Assembly: GCF_000730285.1 (NCBI RefSeq)
Contig: NZ_CP007174.1
Coordinates: forward strand, 124,001 to 188,000
DNA length: 64,000 nt
From: Candidatus Nitrososphaera evergladensis SR1
Lineage (GTDB): Archaea > Thermoproteota > Nitrososphaeria > Nitrososphaerales > Nitrososphaeraceae
Direction: 5' to 3'
How positions within the stretch are numbered: position 1 is the stretch's first letter; the number at the start of each line of letters is the position of its first letter. Position numbers and translations under genes: made by a program. The notes beneath the pieces were generated by a model that did not search any database, had not been told where the DNA came from, and saw nothing but the letters and a program-made list of their open reading frames with translations. Positions 5,203 to 42,296 of the stretch are shown here, piece after piece.

Positions 5203-5610
5203 CTATGCTTTGGCTTGATCAAAGCTTGTAGAGTGAATCTTGGGCTCAAACAGCTTCATCAATAACCTTGTCAGATCCTCAAGTTCAAACGGCTTTTGCA
5301 GGACCTCAATTTTCTCTATCCCGGAAAAGTCGGTAAGCTCCTTGCTAAAAGCTGTTATCATGATTATTGTCTGTCCAGAATGTCTGGCGAGGATCTCCTT
5401 GGCAACATCCCGACCATTCATCTTTGGCATCCTGTAATCTAGAATCACTACGTCGAAAGGTTTGTTCTGATGGTCAGAAAGCATGTAATGATGTAGACAC
5501 TCTTCCCCATCGCGAGCAGTTGTAACTTCGTTTCCCTCGCCTTCAAGGAACACTCTGTACATGAGAAGGATGTTTGGTTCGTCTTCGGCCACAAGTATCC
5601 GCAAGGCCAC
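5203..5610 (-). CDS. Receiver-only response regulator, 135 aa
   Basis: Single CheY-like receiver domain with no output domain. Acidic pocket AEDEPN at 9-14, phospho-acceptor Asp58 in VVILDYRMPKMNG, the Thr/Ser switch in IIMITAFS, and Lys106 in LQKPFE, so all catalytic receiver residues are present. It probably relays or titrates phosphate from sensor kinases such as those at 2261-4141 or 35689-38016, or contacts another protein. It lies between two paralogous mini zinc ribbons on the same strand (gaps of about 145 and 230 bases). Confidence 0.88.
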   Translation of the reverse strand: MALRILVAEDEPNILLMYRVFLEGEGNEVTTARDGEECLHHYMLSDHQNKPFDVVILDYRMPKMNGRDVAKEILARHSGQTIIMITAFSKELTDFSGIEKIEVLQKPFELEDLTRLLMKLFEPKIHSTSFDQAKA

Positions 5611-5837
5611 TGGACAATAACGCGAGTCGCTTAAAAAGACTATGCTTTATACGCAAAATCTCTAGTCGTTTGACGATTCTGCCTTGGAGTGATTCACAGC
5701 GGGGCCGTAATGACACTTGCCGGGCATACGCACACATGGGTGTCAAGTCAATAAATACGCACGGCAAGCAAATGTTTGGTCACAAAAGGCTAACAAGGTT
5801 CCTTTCAAAATATGTGCATTACTAAAAGAAGTGCGTA

Positions 5838-25234: not shown

Positions 25235-25437
25235 GCAAGTGTGTGTATAGAGCCTCTGATGACGATAAGCAAGAGCGCATAAATGCTAATTATTGATGGA
25301 CCCTGGCTTTGATAACACCGCCAACTGTTGTTATTTTTTGATATTATTGATGTAAAATTGCTTATTCTTGTATATATCGACATAGCTTCTATATTCCAAA
25401 ACGCTACACTTGTATACTATGAGAACGTACAGGGTGT

Positions 25438-25626
25438 ATGATTACACCTAGAGAGATCGATTGCCCTAACTGTGGCAAGCCGAACGAATATTCACTAGGT
25501 TCGTGTCGCAAATGCGGACTACCGAGGGAAGAATTCGACAAGATTGAGCAGAATGAAGAAATCTTTAGTAAACTGGGCGAAAGCCTTGCTGCAAAATCAG
25601 CCGCTCGGCAAGGCATTCTGGCTTAG
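25438..25626 (+). CDS. Small zinc ribbon with acidic helix, 62 aa
   Basis: CPNCGKPNEYSLGSCRKCGLP at residues 9-29 is a compact zinc ribbon, followed by an acidic amphipathic helix (EEFDKIEQNEEIFSKLGESLA). ATG start at 25438. The ribbon resembles the C-terminal zinc motif of archaeal integrase-like proteins, but no recombinase domain is present, so it is either a stand-alone protein or a remnant. Confidence 0.65.
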   Translation: MITPREIDCPNCGKPNEYSLGSCRKCGLPREEFDKIEQNEEIFSKLGESLAAKSAARQGILA

Positions 25627-25723
25627 CCGCATATGCACAGAATCGTGGCGGTTTACTTTTGCGTATAGAAAAAAGCAAAATGAGTGAAGACACAATTAGC
25701 AAAGGTGCATACTACTCCTTGCA

Positions 25724-35688: not shown

Positions 35689-38016
35689 TTGTCTACATCA
35701 AATCAGCCAGAAGTAAAAAACAAGGAGACGGCAGCCGCAGCAGCAACAACAGAGATTCTCTACGGCGCCGAAAATGCGGTGGAGAGAGGAATAAAGTTCA
35801 TGTCAAATGTACAAAAACGAATGGATATTACTTTTGATCACAGAGGTCCTTCCATAGTAGTCGAGATACCCTCTTACTGGGACGGATATCTTGACATCAT
35901 AAGAAGAGGGGGAGAAATCAGAGTTGTTACGGAGATCACTTCTGCAAATGTGAACTATTGCAAGCAAATCGCAAAAATTGCCAAGGTCCGCCATTTGAAC
36001 GGGATGATAGGAGGCATCGCGATGAATGAAACAGAGTACATGGCTACCACAACGCTGGAAGAAAGCAGACCCCTGACACAAGTTATTTACAGCAATGTAG
36101 ATGAAGTTGTAAGACAAGGTCGTTGCCTATTTGAAAGCCTCTGGGAAAATGCGATTCCCGCCGAAGACAGGTTAAGGGAAATTGAGGAAGGGGTAGAGCC
36201 GGAAAGGACACGTGTAATGCACGGGTCTGATCAAATCCTCAACTGGACAATGGAATCCTTCTCCAAAATAAGAGAAACCTTTGATAGCTGCATGACTTCT
36301 GACGGCCCTTCAATACTTTTTGAGAATGCAGCTCTAATGAAAGCATACGCCCAACTGAAGGATAGGGGAATAAAGTTAAGGTTCCTCACCGAGATTACCG
36401 CAGACAACCTGCCCTACTGTAAGCAGATTGCAAAAATCGCCGAAGTGCGACACCTTGACAGAGTCAAGGGCACATTTGGCATAGCAGACAAAAGGCAGTA
36501 TGCTGCAAGTGGAATTGCACACAAAGGAGAGGTGCCTTCCAGACTCATTGTGAGCACTGTAAGGGTTTTTGTCGAGCATCAACAGTATTCATTTGATGCT
36601 CTGTGGGAAAAGGCGATGAGCGCAGAGCAGAGGATAGGGCAAATTGAGGAAGGCTTGGAGCCTGAGTATATAAAGACGATAGACAATTCCGAGGTGCAAC
36701 GTATTGTATACGAGTTACTTGATAAGGCCCAGGAGGAGGTACGAATAATTTTTTCAACAGCCAATGCGTTTCGCCGCCAAAAACGGGCGGGAGGCTTGCA
36801 ACATTTAATTGCGATTGCAAAAAAGCGTAGACTAAGGATCAGGCTTCTTGCGCCACTAGACAAGAATATACAAAAAGAATATGAAAGATTTGTAAGAGAA
36901 CTTCCGCCTGCATCACATCATCATCATCATCCTCATAATCAAGACGACAAACAGATTGTTGATATTAGATATATCGAGCCCGGCTGGCACAGCAAAATTT
37001 CTCTCTTGATAGTTGACTCAAGATTCTCTTTGGCCGCTGAATTGAGAGACGATACAAAAGAAACTGTCAATGAGGCCATAGGTCTTGCAACTTTGTCAAA
37101 CAGCAAGGCCACGGTGTCGTCGTACGTTTCGATGTTTGAGAGCATGTGGATGCAAAGTGAACTACATGAAAAGCTTAAAGTACACAGCAAAATGCAGCAT
37201 GAATTCATCAACATTGCAGCCCACGAGCTTCGAACTCCAATTCAGCCGATAATTGGACTGTCCGATGTTCTTTACATCAATACAACGGATGACCGCCAAC
37301 GCGAACTTGTTACCATCATAAATAGAAATGCAAGGAGGTTGAAAACGCTTGCAGAGGATATCCTTGATGTTACCAAGATAGAAAGCCATTCTTTGAAATT
37401 GCAGAAAGAGCATTTCAATCTGAGGGAGTTGGTAGCGGATACCATACAGGATGTCAAGACCTCGCAGGAATACAAGGACAGCAAAGTGCAATTATTTTAC
37501 AAGTCTGGAGGAGATCAAGACGAGGACAGTGATGGTGGTAGTGACGATGATATTGTGGTAGAAGCAGACAAAGAAAAAATAATGCAAGTAATCCGCAATC
37601 TTTTGGACAATGCATTAGAGTTTACAAATGAAGGAGGAGTTGTAAATGTGGAAGTGGCGAAAATGCATACAAATAACGACTATGGCGAAGCCGCTTCCGA
37701 TCTTGCCGCCGTAGTATCCATCAAGGATACAGGCGCTGGAATAGCGCCAGAGATACTCCCCGTAATGTTTGATAAGTTTGTCACAAAGTCTAACAGAGGC
37801 ACTGGTTTGGGGCTGTTTATTTCAAAGGGAATAGTAGAAGCTCATGGCGGCAGGATATGGGGTGAGAACAATTACTATTGTTACAACAGGGGTGACGGTG
37901 GTGGCAGCAAGGAGAAGAAAGGTAAGAAGAAGGGCGCGACTTTTACATTTACTCTGCCATTAAAAAATAAAGACTGTCGGTTCATAAGGCCTTCCGCAAA
38001 AAATATTGCGCTTTAA
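35689..38016 (+). CDS. Sensor histidine kinase with triplicated N-terminal sensory module
   Basis: 775 residues, no membrane helix, so cytoplasmic. Residues about 24-165 and 176-322 are internal duplicates (both contain TEITSANVNYCKQIAKIAKVRHL-like blocks ending in FxxLWExA), and 323-495 is a third, more divergent unit ending SSYVSMFESMWMQ. The fold resembles phospholipase-D-like sensory domains of archaeal kinases, but the HxK motif is missing, so it is probably a non-enzymatic sensor. The kinase core follows: His512 in FINIAAHELRTPIQP, N box NLLDNALEFTNEGG, G1 DTGAGIA, G2 GTGLGLFISK. An unusual run of five His is near residue 406. Start codon TTG 35689. No receiver attached; it may phosphorylate the lone receivers nearby. 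Confidence 0.88.
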   Translation: MSTSNQPEVKNKETAAAAATTEILYGAENAVERGIKFMSNVQKRMDITFDHRGPSIVVEIPSYWDGYLDIIRRGGEIRVVTEITSANVNYCKQIAKIAKVRHLNGMIGGIAMNETEYMATTTLEESRPLTQVIYSNVDEVVRQGRCLFESLWENAIPAEDRLREIEEGVEPERTRVMHGSDQILNWTMESFSKIRETFDSCMTSDGPSILFENAALMKAYAQLKDRGIKLRFLTEITADNLPYCKQIAKIAEVRHLDRVKGTFGIADKRQYAASGIAHKGEVPSRLIVSTVRVFVEHQQYSFDALWEKAMSAEQRIGQIEEGLEPEYIKTIDNSEVQRIVYELLDKAQEEVRIIFSTANAFRRQKRAGGLQHLIAIAKKRRLRIRLLAPLDKNIQKEYERFVRELPPASHHHHHPHNQDDKQIVDIRYIEPGWHSKISLLIVDSRFSLAAELRDDTKETVNEAIGLATLSNSKATVSSYVSMFESMWMQSELHEKLKVHSKMQHEFINIAAHELRTPIQPIIGLSDVLYINTTDDRQRELVTIINRNARRLKTLAEDILDVTKIESHSLKLQKEHFNLRELVADTIQDVKTSQEYKDSKVQLFYKSGGDQDEDSDGGSDDDIVVEADKEKIMQVIRNLLDNALEFTNEGGVVNVEVAKMHTNNDYGEAASDLAAVVSIKDTGAGIAPEILPVMFDKFVTKSNRGTGLGLFISKGIVEAHGGRIWGENNYYCYNRGDGGGSKEKKGKKKGATFTFTLPLKNKDCRFIRPSAKNIAL

Positions 38017-38345
38017 GGGCTGTTGCTTCCCTGTCGGAATAGATACGTCGTGTATATTATTCAATAATACGTCCCTACCTGCCGCACCAAGATGTCAAAA
38101 ACGGTTTGTAGCAGAGAGCAAAAATACAACGTTAGAAAATCAATTCTCCCTTATGCAGCTAGGCTATATATCTGACAGAAGAATCTCATTAGATAAATTC
38201 AGCTAGTAGCTCTAGCTGCATCTTAGAGCTGACTTTTGTACAAGATGTTTTTCACATTACAAACTCATTATACTTCGACAATCGTATAATGTGTCTGGCT
38301 AGAAACGAACGGGGTTTTAGCACCGATGTACATGAGAGCACACCG

Positions 38346-38386
38346 TGCCCCTACCTAGTGAGTTGTACCTTTTGCAGGTAGGGGCA
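38346..38386. repeat. Hairpin element (GCCCCTACC type)
   Basis: tgcccctacct (38346-38356) and aggtaggggca (38376-38386): 11-bp perfect stem, 19-base loop. Confidence 0.65.
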
Positions 38387-38698
38387 ACAATTTACCAAAT
38401 CAAAATCGACAAAACGCGCAAAAACGTATAGAAGATAAACCAGCGCAAAAATCATGTCTTGACTCCACAATTTGGGTCATCGACGAGTAACGAAAATAGA
38501 TCAGTGCAGGCTGCCAAAACGTTATTTGTCGAATCAGTCTTTGACTGTATTATGGCTTGTTTTTAGCAGCAATGCCTAGCTAAGAAATAATGAGTTTTTG
38601 CTTCACTATGATAAATCATACAATATACTTGGGTAATGTGATTTAGAAAATAATAATTACTTACTTTGGTTGTACAATGTTTATCAGGTGCGTTCTAG

Positions 38699-38795
38699 CA
38701 ACCGTGCCTGAGCAAGTCAAGCATAACCCCAAGTGACCGTGTGAAGCCGACCCCTGCCCGCCATCTGATCATAATACCCAGATGGGTAGGGGTCG
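38699..38795. repeat. Array element with CCTGAGC box and long hairpin, copy 1
   Basis: Begins caaccgtgcctgagcaagtc, then ataacccc, then the stem cgacccctgccc (38748-38759) / gggtaggggtcg (38784-38795) that continues as catctg/cagatg: about 17 bp with a 3-base bulge. Same leading box as 39117. Confidence 0.65.
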
Positions 38796-38839
38796 ACCAA
38801 ACTAACCAAGACTTGATTTTGATTTGTGCATTAAAAATT

Positions 38840-38925
38840 GCGCGAGCCAGCGTGATTCTCGTGCCTGAGCAAGTTTTACATCATACCTCAAACTAGCCAC
38901 AACCCCTCGTAACGCCGACTCGCGC
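38840..38925. repeat. Array element GCGCGAGCCAGCG ... CTCGCGC, copy 1
   Basis: Closed by gcgcgag (38840-38846) / ctcgcgc (38919-38925). Its interior shares gagcaagt and gccacaac with copy 2 at 39260-39346, 420 bp downstream. Confidence 0.65.
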
Positions 38926-39116
38926 GAAGTCTAGGCAAGGACGTTTGGTAATAATGTAGTGCTCAGAAAAGTTTGTTCGCGCGGCAAAAATTGGCTTGCC
39001 GTTGTCTGCTTATTTGTAGATAAGTAAGCCACCTTAAGGTAGCAGCTTTACTATCTCGTCAGTAAGCAAGCCTTAAAGGCTACACTATGTTGCTTGTCTA
39101 CTATCAGGCATGAAGG

Positions 39117-39225
39117 CAACCGTGCCTGAGCAAGTCTTCAAACAGCATCATAACCCCAATCTATGTCTGCATACAAGACCCGGCCTCTACTCAGATTGCC
39201 ATGTCTGACTAAGTAGAGGCCGGTC
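39117..39225. repeat. Array element with CCTGAGC box and long hairpin, copy 2
   Basis: Starts with the same caaccgtgcctgagcaagtc box as 38699 (418 bp apart), then ataacccc, then hairpin ggcctctact (39182-39191) / agtagaggcc (39212-39221) with a further caga/tctg inside. Confidence 0.65.
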
Positions 39226-39259
39226 GTCAAATTACAAAGTGTCTTTTATTTTTAGAGAT

Positions 39260-39346
39260 GCGCGAGCCAGCGTTTCATACCCGAGCAAGTCACAACATGA
39301 TACTATACCCCATAAAGCCACAACGCCCGAACATGCTGACTCGCGC
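39260..39346. repeat. Array element GCGCGAGCCAGCG ... CTCGCGC, copy 2
   Basis: gcgcgag (39260-39266) / ctcgcgc (39340-39346), 87 bases; counterpart of 38840-38925. Interior again has gagcaagtc and agccacaac. Confidence 0.65.
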
Positions 39347-39744
39347 AAAACAAGATCGACTGTCACGAGTATTAATGTATGTCTCGTTATTGTAATTGCA
39401 AATGGTTCGACAATGGGCAAAGTTGACACATTTGGTCAAAAAGAGACAAATGTGTTATTTTGCGCCTTATCTATGATGCTAGGCCATTATTTTGATTCTG
39501 TCGTGCTTTATTCGTCGATGTACGAAAACAAGTCGCCGATATTGTCTAAACCAAGTGTGCTACCTAACAGACTAGTCACCGTTTGGGCAGCCAATTTCTC
39601 TAGGTATTTTCATGTCACTTTAGCACGCAGCCATATCGTACAAGAGCACCGATTCGATTGATAGTGCGTCTTTAGCGAAAGTAAGTCATTTTTACTATGA
39701 ACGTGAACTAGTTCTATCGGGCACATACAACGGCCGGTAGTAGT

Positions 39745-39815
39745 GCCTGATAGCCCCAACGTAGAGACGCCGTAACTGCCCCTACCAAATTTGTGCACTT
39801 GGTCCTGGTAGGGGC
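39745..39815. repeat. Array element, divergent last copy
   Basis: tgcctga ... agccccaa ... followed by hairpin gcccctacca (39778-39787) / tggtaggggc (39806-39815), the same stem core as 38346. Confidence 0.5.
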
Positions 39816-40722: not shown

Positions 40723-40850
40723 TTATTCCTTTTTTCTTATATCATCCAACTATCTGTGCATTCACACTGATATCACATGTAATCAATGCTCCTGCATTGC
40801 TTGCAGAATAAACGTCCTCGCTAAATGCCACACCCGGAAAATTTGTGTTG

Positions 40851-42296
40851 ATGAAGACGACGACGAAGAAATTTCCTATGATGACTCTTGCCGTTGCAGT
40901 AGCGGCATCCATAGCGCTAACAGGAGTTAGTGGATACTTTGTTCTGCAGCCAGGCAATTCCGAAGAAATACTGCAGAATTCTGCACAGGGGAAAGGAACG
41001 GCAGACGACGACACTTCGCGTGGAGATGCGCAGAAAACTGTCGAGTACACGCTAGTAGGAGAAAATACGACGCTTGAAATAGCACCTGGGGTCAGAGTTG
41101 AAGCTTGGACATACAATGGGACGATACCGGGGCCCGTCCTTCGAGCCACAGAAGGGGACAGAGTTGTCCTTCACTTCATAAACAAAACTCCAATGTCTCA
41201 TACAATACATCTTCATGGCGACCATGATGAGAAGGATGATGGAGTCTTTCAGGTGGTCAAACCCGGCGAGACGTACACGTACGACTTTATCGCTGGGCCT
41301 CCCGGAGCGTTGATGTACCATTGCCACGTGATGCCTGTGACGCAGCACATACGTATGGGTCTTTATGGTGCGTTGATAGTCGATCCAAAGGAAGGCCTTT
41401 CGCCAGCCAGGGAATACGTTCTAGTGGCAGGCGAATATGACACCAAGGACCAAGTTACAAACAACCCCGAGTACGTCTTCTTTAACGGCTATGCAGACCA
41501 GTACTGGGATCATCCCTTAGAAGTAAAGACAAACGAGACAGTCAGAGTGTATTACGTAAACATGGGTGCATCACCAGCATACGGCTTCCACATCCACGGC
41601 ACCATCTTTGATGCCTACGCATCAGGAATCTGGGAAAATACGCCTATGAAGGTACAGACATGGGAGGTAGCCGCAGGCAATGGTGCAATATTTGAGGCCA
41701 AGTGGCCTTGGGAGGGAAGATACCTATTCCACCTTCATGGCCTGCCGGAGGAAAAGGGCACAATGGCCTACTTTAACGTCACAAATGCTCCTACAAGCGC
41801 AGTAGACGGCGTAGACATTGCCAAAACAAAATCAATCAACATGATTGGATGGCAGGAAGACCTTGCAAGAAAGCTGCAAAAGCAAGATGCGTCTGGAACG
41901 CCAAGTGTAGATGCATCGTTATCAGAGTCGCCACATGGTGGACATCAGATGATGGATGGGGTTAATGGCAACAATGGCAAGGAGGCAAACAAAAAAGTAG
42001 AAGCCGGCAGCGCTGTGCCAGTGCAAACCAACACGGTGGTCATGCCCAAGGGTGCGGCAGCTGATGACAGCAAGAGCTTTGAACCATCCAGCATTACCGT
42101 AAACGCAGGAACCACTGTAACTTGGAGAAATGACGACAACACGTTCCACATAGTCGCCAGCAAGGCAGAGGGCGTATTTGCATCGGATCTTATCTCGCAA
42201 AAAAAGACATTTGAGCATACATTCGCAGAACAAGGTACCTACGATTACTATTGCTCCCTGCACCCATGGATGACAGGAACTGTGAACGTAAAGTAA
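40851..42296 (+). CDS. nirK: NirK-type two-domain multicopper oxidase with fused cupredoxin
   Basis: About 481 residues from ATG 40851; signal/anchor at 10-32. Two cupredoxin domains form the two-domain multicopper oxidase: type-2/3 ligands in HTIHLHGDH, type-1 ligands in MYHCHVMPVTQHIRMGLYG, second-domain FHIHGTIFD and YLFHLHGLPEEKG. After a His/Met/Asn-rich linker (PHGGHQMMDGVNG) a third, plastocyanin-like domain follows with ligands His, Cys, His, Met in DDNTFHIVAS and YDYYCSLHPWMTG. This matches NirK of archaeal ammonia oxidizers, which reduces nitrite to NO and is implicated in ammonia oxidation; the fused cupredoxin probably feeds electrons. Extracellular face. Followed by a ribbon-helix-helix gene on the same strand. 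Confidence 0.85.
   Translation: MKTTTKKFPMMTLAVAVAASIALTGVSGYFVLQPGNSEEILQNSAQGKGTADDDTSRGDAQKTVEYTLVGENTTLEIAPGVRVEAWTYNGTIPGPVLRATEGDRVVLHFINKTPMSHTIHLHGDHDEKDDGVFQVVKPGETYTYDFIAGPPGALMYHCHVMPVTQHIRMGLYGALIVDPKEGLSPAREYVLVAGEYDTKDQVTNNPEYVFFNGYADQYWDHPLEVKTNETVRVYYVNMGASPAYGFHIHGTIFDAYASGIWENTPMKVQTWEVAAGNGAIFEAKWPWEGRYLFHLHGLPEEKGTMAYFNVTNAPTSAVDGVDIAKTKSINMIGWQEDLARKLQKQDASGTPSVDASLSESPHGGHQMMDGVNGNNGKEANKKVEAGSAVPVQTNTVVMPKGAAADDSKSFEPSSITVNAGTTVTWRNDDNTFHIVASKAEGVFASDLISQKKTFEHTFAEQGTYDYYCSLHPWMTGTVNVK

Follow-up and report, generated by a model that had tools for sequence, protein, structure and literature searches.

A candidate small RNA family in a noncoding array of Candidatus Nitrososphaera evergladensis

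What kind of element occupies the gap, poor in genes, that separates a histidine kinase gene (35689-38016) from a multicopper oxidase gene (40845-42296) in Candidatus Nitrososphaera evergladensis? The genome of this archaeon, published as a single 2.95-Mb contig (PMC4084955), comprises one contig of 2,954,373 bases, of which a stretch of 64,000 nucleotides was analyzed (the window, C1:124001-188000; plain positions below refer to it). A sequence-only reading of the gap had described alternating structured elements with a 419-bp tandem duplication and suggested tandem small RNAs, a new repeat family, or a replication or recombination locus. The last of these found no support, as the elements are scattered over the chromosome. 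At 38-39 kb the GC skew changes only locally, at the point where a plus-strand gene ends.

Layout of the array

Between positions 38680 and 39816 the window carries three copies of an element, here called A (A1, A2, and A3), and two copies of a companion, B (B1 and B2); these, their parts, the orphan stem, and the TATA-like boxes described below are on the plus strand. In element A, a first hairpin of the type TCAGGCAYG/CRYGCCTGA leads into GCAAGT, which is unpaired and present in most copies; next come a linker of the CATA(A)CCCC type and a long G+C hairpin, the sequence of which varies from copy to copy. In A1, hairpin 1 (TCAGGTGCG/CGTGCCTGA) spans 38684..38711, the unpaired linker with GCAAGTC and CATAACCCC spans 38712..38747, and hairpin 2 (CGACCCCTGCCC/GGGTAGGGGTCG) spans 38748..38795, the same place that it takes in other copies. 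The corresponding parts of A2 are hairpin 1 (TCAGGCATG/CGTGCCTGA; 39104..39129), a linker with the same two motifs (39130..39177), and hairpin 2, an inverted repeat (CCGGCCTCTACT/AGTAGAGGCCGG; 39178..39225). Both linkers are conserved among copies. A3 begins with hairpin 1 (TCGGGCAC/GTGCCTGA), after which TAGCCCCAACG stands in place of GCAAGT (39717..39750), and ends with hairpin 2 (GCCCCTACC/GGTAGGGGC; 39778..39815). B1 (38837..38929) and B2 (39257..39350) are imperfect palindromes with TGCGCGAGCCAGC/GCCGACTCGCGC and TGCGCGAGCCAGC/GCTGACTCGCGCA, respectively.

Every hairpin named in the sequence-only reading is present, as are the GCAACCGTGCCTGAGCAAGTC repeats at 38698 and 39116, with diverged copies at 38855 and 39280, and the 15-nt TGCGCGAGCCAGCGT repeats, which lie 420 bp apart. 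Several boundaries have to be redrawn, however. The first element had been drawn too short, as it misses the 5′ arm of its hairpin, the start of which is at 38684 in one copy and at 39104 in the other. The hairpin at 39778 is present, but it is hairpin 2 of A3, whereas the one reported at 38346 is an orphan GCCCCTACC/GGTAGGGGC stem (38345..38386) with no recognizable hairpin 1 in front, perhaps a remnant. Relative to shuffled sequences, the predicted folds are clearly more stable in four of six cases (z -3.95 for the A1 unit, -5.20 for A2, -4.52, and -4.68 for the orphan), but not for B1 (z -1.79) or for the hairpin at 39778 (z -1.59). The contiguous tandem duplication does not hold: homology between the two 419/420-bp units is limited to A-B composites of ~255 nt, and the ~160-nt spacers between them align with a score of 22.5 against a shuffled maximum of 35.5. 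Since the spacers thus align no better than shuffled sequence, the array contains two copies of the composite rather than one contiguous 419-bp repeat. An assembly error is an unlikely source of the array, given that the copies differ among themselves and that the family recurs in a second genome.

Copies, compensatory changes, and conservation of place

Further places with element A were collected by a BLAST search of the genome against itself and by reading the matches, which revealed the common anatomy. A first full-length alignment misplaced hairpin 2, and a covariance model (R1) was therefore built on hairpin 1 and GCAAGT alone. With a threshold of E<=0.001, R1 matches 13 copies here (ten with E below 1e-7; A1, E=1.9e-9 at C1:162681-162718; A2, E=3.5e-10) and five in a relative of 2,527,938 bases (G015), which we take to be, probably, N. 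viennensis. At this threshold the remaining 68 of the 70 genomes of the taxonomic family that were searched gave no match. Borderline R1 matches elsewhere in the genus lacked the rest of the element in those read by eye. Collection by hand, which includes weaker and second units, raised the number to 25, with 18 in this genome and seven in G015. In a relaxed scan for hairpin 1 over 1.2 Mb of this genome, seven of the nine places found were already family members, which argues against a large hidden reserve of copies.

An exact-core scan of GTDB species genomes, outside which this genome and very near ones may fall, returned four unrelated bacterial matches. Rfam 15 at the curated threshold matched only tRNAs and has no family for the elements; known RNA families, tRNA and tmRNA included, account for neither the repeats nor the hairpins. 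A plasmid or viral carrier was rejected as well, the searches giving either no match or chance matches unlike the element.

To examine base pairing, the 5′ arm of hairpin 1 was defined in all 25 units as nine bases counted from TCAG, and its 3′ arm as the nine bases up to and including the conserved CTGA. Two-sided, compensatory changes are found at five of the nine pairs (15 cells). One of 500 shuffles reaches this much covariation and no slid control does; because the copies are related, these controls overstate significance. Hairpin 2 shows compensatory changes between the orthologues at 1984 kb in this genome and 897 kb in G015. When the fold of one orthologue is projected strictly on the other, the hairpin 1 stem is preserved almost whole, while many pairs elsewhere are broken, in part through insertions and deletions. 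Moreover, wobble pairs are more frequent than A.C mismatches in hairpin 1 (11:2, P 0.022) and in hairpin 2 (12:5, P 0.14), an excess expected for RNA of this strand. The total folding energy shows no strand preference.

Element B behaves differently from what had been proposed for it. Its stem, thought to be maintained despite sequence differences, is nearly invariant: among six sequences, no pair of the outer stem has changed in both partners (all of 500 shuffles score as high), and several changes break pairs. B is always found downstream of an A. A second covariance model, R2, of which B1 (E=3.1e-18) and B2 (E=5.1e-17) are building members, recovers B only where it had already been collected, together with weak matches, each of which is downstream of an A unit or represents the reverse strand of a known B. 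We therefore describe B as a conserved imperfect palindrome and make no claim that it is a structured RNA. B accompanies A and would be a 3′ extension of some A RNAs or else a palindrome in its own right.

Four loci are syntenic in the two genomes (this genome/G015): 1455/370 kb, 1984/897 kb (both with a second unit ~215 nt downstream), 2003/919 kb, and a cluster beside a tRNA-Arg gene at 1705/573 kb. In G015, copies lie at C1 370663, 574051 (minus strand), 897519, and 919128. The second units of the two genomes (L149 ~5340-5450; L146 ~5730-5830) carry a TCAGG hairpin, show a C-G to U-A exchange in its stem, and have GAACGTC where the first unit has GAGCAAGT; a similar second unit is present at 1741 kb. 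A3 has a counterpart in G015 that matches at 76% over 213 nt (75.6%; L145 5182-5390), with a two-sided change between them in hairpin 1. For the window array, the nearest counterpart is part of the G015 tRNA-Arg cluster; the downstream oxidase gene, in contrast, has its G015 relative at another place, 1633 kb, which indicates that pieces have moved.

The G015 cluster itself (L145 5319-5561 and 4706-4824) is pieced together from noncoding stretches and decayed coding ones, whose matches in this genome lie far apart from one another. One such piece is found in the window at 25397-25636, a 78% DNA match to L145 5319-5561; it overlaps a 62-aa zinc-ribbon-like frame (25438-25626) with a Pfam match only below the cut-off, and the frame looks degraded in G015. 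In addition, the end of the tRNA-Arg (GCG) gene of G015 and the adjoining stretch (L145 4496-4625) recur in this genome (L151 1028-1103 and 5285-5351), where the recurring end lies ~4.2 kb from the tRNA gene, as an integrated element would leave it.

A promoter-like signal and the nature of element A

In archaea, a TATA box at -31 to -25 places the transcription start at the position to which these numbers refer. Counted from the TCAG of hairpin 1, the upstream sequences of the copies show a peak of A+T in this range, 82% relative to an average of 66%. None of 10,000 permutations gave a peak as high, neither for all copies nor for the copies of this genome alone, and the peak persists in the 14 copies with dissimilar upstream sequence (P 0.009). 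The gene starts of this genome have a broad rise in A+T in the same range. The peak is a putative TATA box, as expected of an archaeal promoter, with a predicted start at the foot of hairpin 1. In A1 the TATA-like stretch, read from the sequence, is ATAATAATTA (38650..38659); in A2 it is CTTAAAG (39072..39078), within an upstream stretch that also precedes copies at 1705 kb and in G015. T-rich stretches lie 3′ of several second hairpins, as archaeal terminators would. A scan for sigma-70 promoters is not applicable to archaea.

The dispersed copies, the compensatory changes, the orthologous positions, and the TATA-like signal at a fixed distance support the suggestions of tandem small RNAs and of a new repeat family as far as element A is concerned. 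We consider it likely that element A is a small RNA gene with its own predicted promoter. In this model, RNA polymerase would begin at the base of hairpin 1, a little less than 30 nt past the TATA-like box, and would produce an RNA of ~80-130 nt. Its 5′ hairpin would be followed by an exposed linker, made up of GCAAGU and, in most cases, a stretch of the CAUA(A)CCCC type, and the G+C hairpin on the 3′ side might protect the RNA end. The linker is the most conserved unpaired part and, for this reason, likely forms a binding surface for RNA or protein. Duplication, some of it within a tRNA-linked island, would have given rise to the copies, of which several would have been kept in place since the two Nitrososphaera species parted.

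Against this model stand the absence of a strand preference in folding energy, the pairs broken in the strict projection, and the negative start-codon test described below. The occurrence of some copies among remnants of integrated elements also counts against it and leads to the rival that we weigh first. Element A could be nonautonomous mobile DNA, MITE-like or a fragment of integrated elements, in which case a transposase or recombinase would recognize the hairpins at the DNA level and leave the copies as footprints. Dispersed, palindromic elements fit this idea, as do the gathering of scattered pieces in the G015 tRNA-Arg cluster and the displaced partial copy of the tRNA-Arg end in L151. 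However, the copies are few and strongly diverged, several are at orthologous places, and neither the A+T peak at a fixed distance nor the excess of wobble pairs on one strand would be expected; furthermore, we noticed no terminal repeats accompanied by target duplications. In a comparison with empty sites, the flanks of genome-specific copies aligned too loosely with G015 to place exact sites. On balance, we regard a mobile-DNA origin of these features as unlikely.

The small RNA model also has a narrower form, in which A is a trans-acting antisense RNA that uses its C-rich linker on G-rich translation starts, as bacterial C-rich sRNAs do. The C-rich unpaired motif between stable stems resembles that of Xanthomonas sX13 (PMC3771888). 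At 337 start regions, however, complementarity was no higher than in upstream or internal regions, in a test that covered 1.2 Mb with roughly chosen starts and that a few true targets would escape. This form seems rather improbable to us. A role of the hairpins as cis-acting elements in the leaders or 3′ regions of neighboring genes is very unlikely: genes for HTH_45 regulators are found close to units in several locations, and an AsnC-type regulator lies ~0.3 kb downstream of the 1455-kb copy and of its orthologue, but the neighbors vary between copies and a unit can be convergent to the regulator gene (L151 7230-7396). The 2.95-Mb genome has ~40 HTH_45 winged-helix genes; those within a few hundred bases of A units (L150 5454-5855; L151 5375-5695 and 7396-7809; L148 4769-5164) are more numerous than this total would lead one to expect, but their orientation is not constant.

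Collectively, the small RNA model describes what is probably a new family, confined to two species as far as sampled, ordinary in kind and new in identity. A bolder version, to which we give little credence, is a lineage-specific, recently expanded family in which a common protein would bind the GCAAGU linker and hairpin 2 would confer the identity of each copy, making it a new class of archaeal regulatory RNA. Our literature searches returned no publication that deals with small regulatory RNAs in these soil ammonia oxidizers, and PMC7785015 makes no mention of small or noncoding RNA. A conserved core with several paralogues per genome offers a concrete, testable entry into RNA regulation in soil ammonia-oxidizing archaea and, if G015 is N. 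viennensis, the family has a cultivated host.

Comparison with known systems

The arrangement of imperfect palindromes in an array recalls integron attC arrays; unlike these, the window copies have no cassette genes between them, the elements are dispersed, and A carries a promoter-like signal. With MITE and REP-like palindromic elements, A shares being short, dispersed, noncoding, palindromic, and partly located in islands, but it differs from them in its few copies, orthologous retention, and promoter-like signal, and we noticed no terminal repeats with target duplications around it. Archaeal H/ACA and C/D guide RNAs are likewise short, structured, noncoding, and intergenic, whereas A has no Rfam match, no C/C′ box by eye, and no recognized H/ACA layout. 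The C-rich trans-acting sRNAs, of which Xanthomonas sX13 (PMC3771888) is an example and to which the S. aureus RNAIII type belongs, are bacterial; element A is archaeal, has many paralogues per genome, and carries its C-rich motif in the linker and not in loops, with no start-codon targets seen. What element A has in common with these sRNAs is its design, that of a small, stem-rich molecule with C-rich unpaired motifs.
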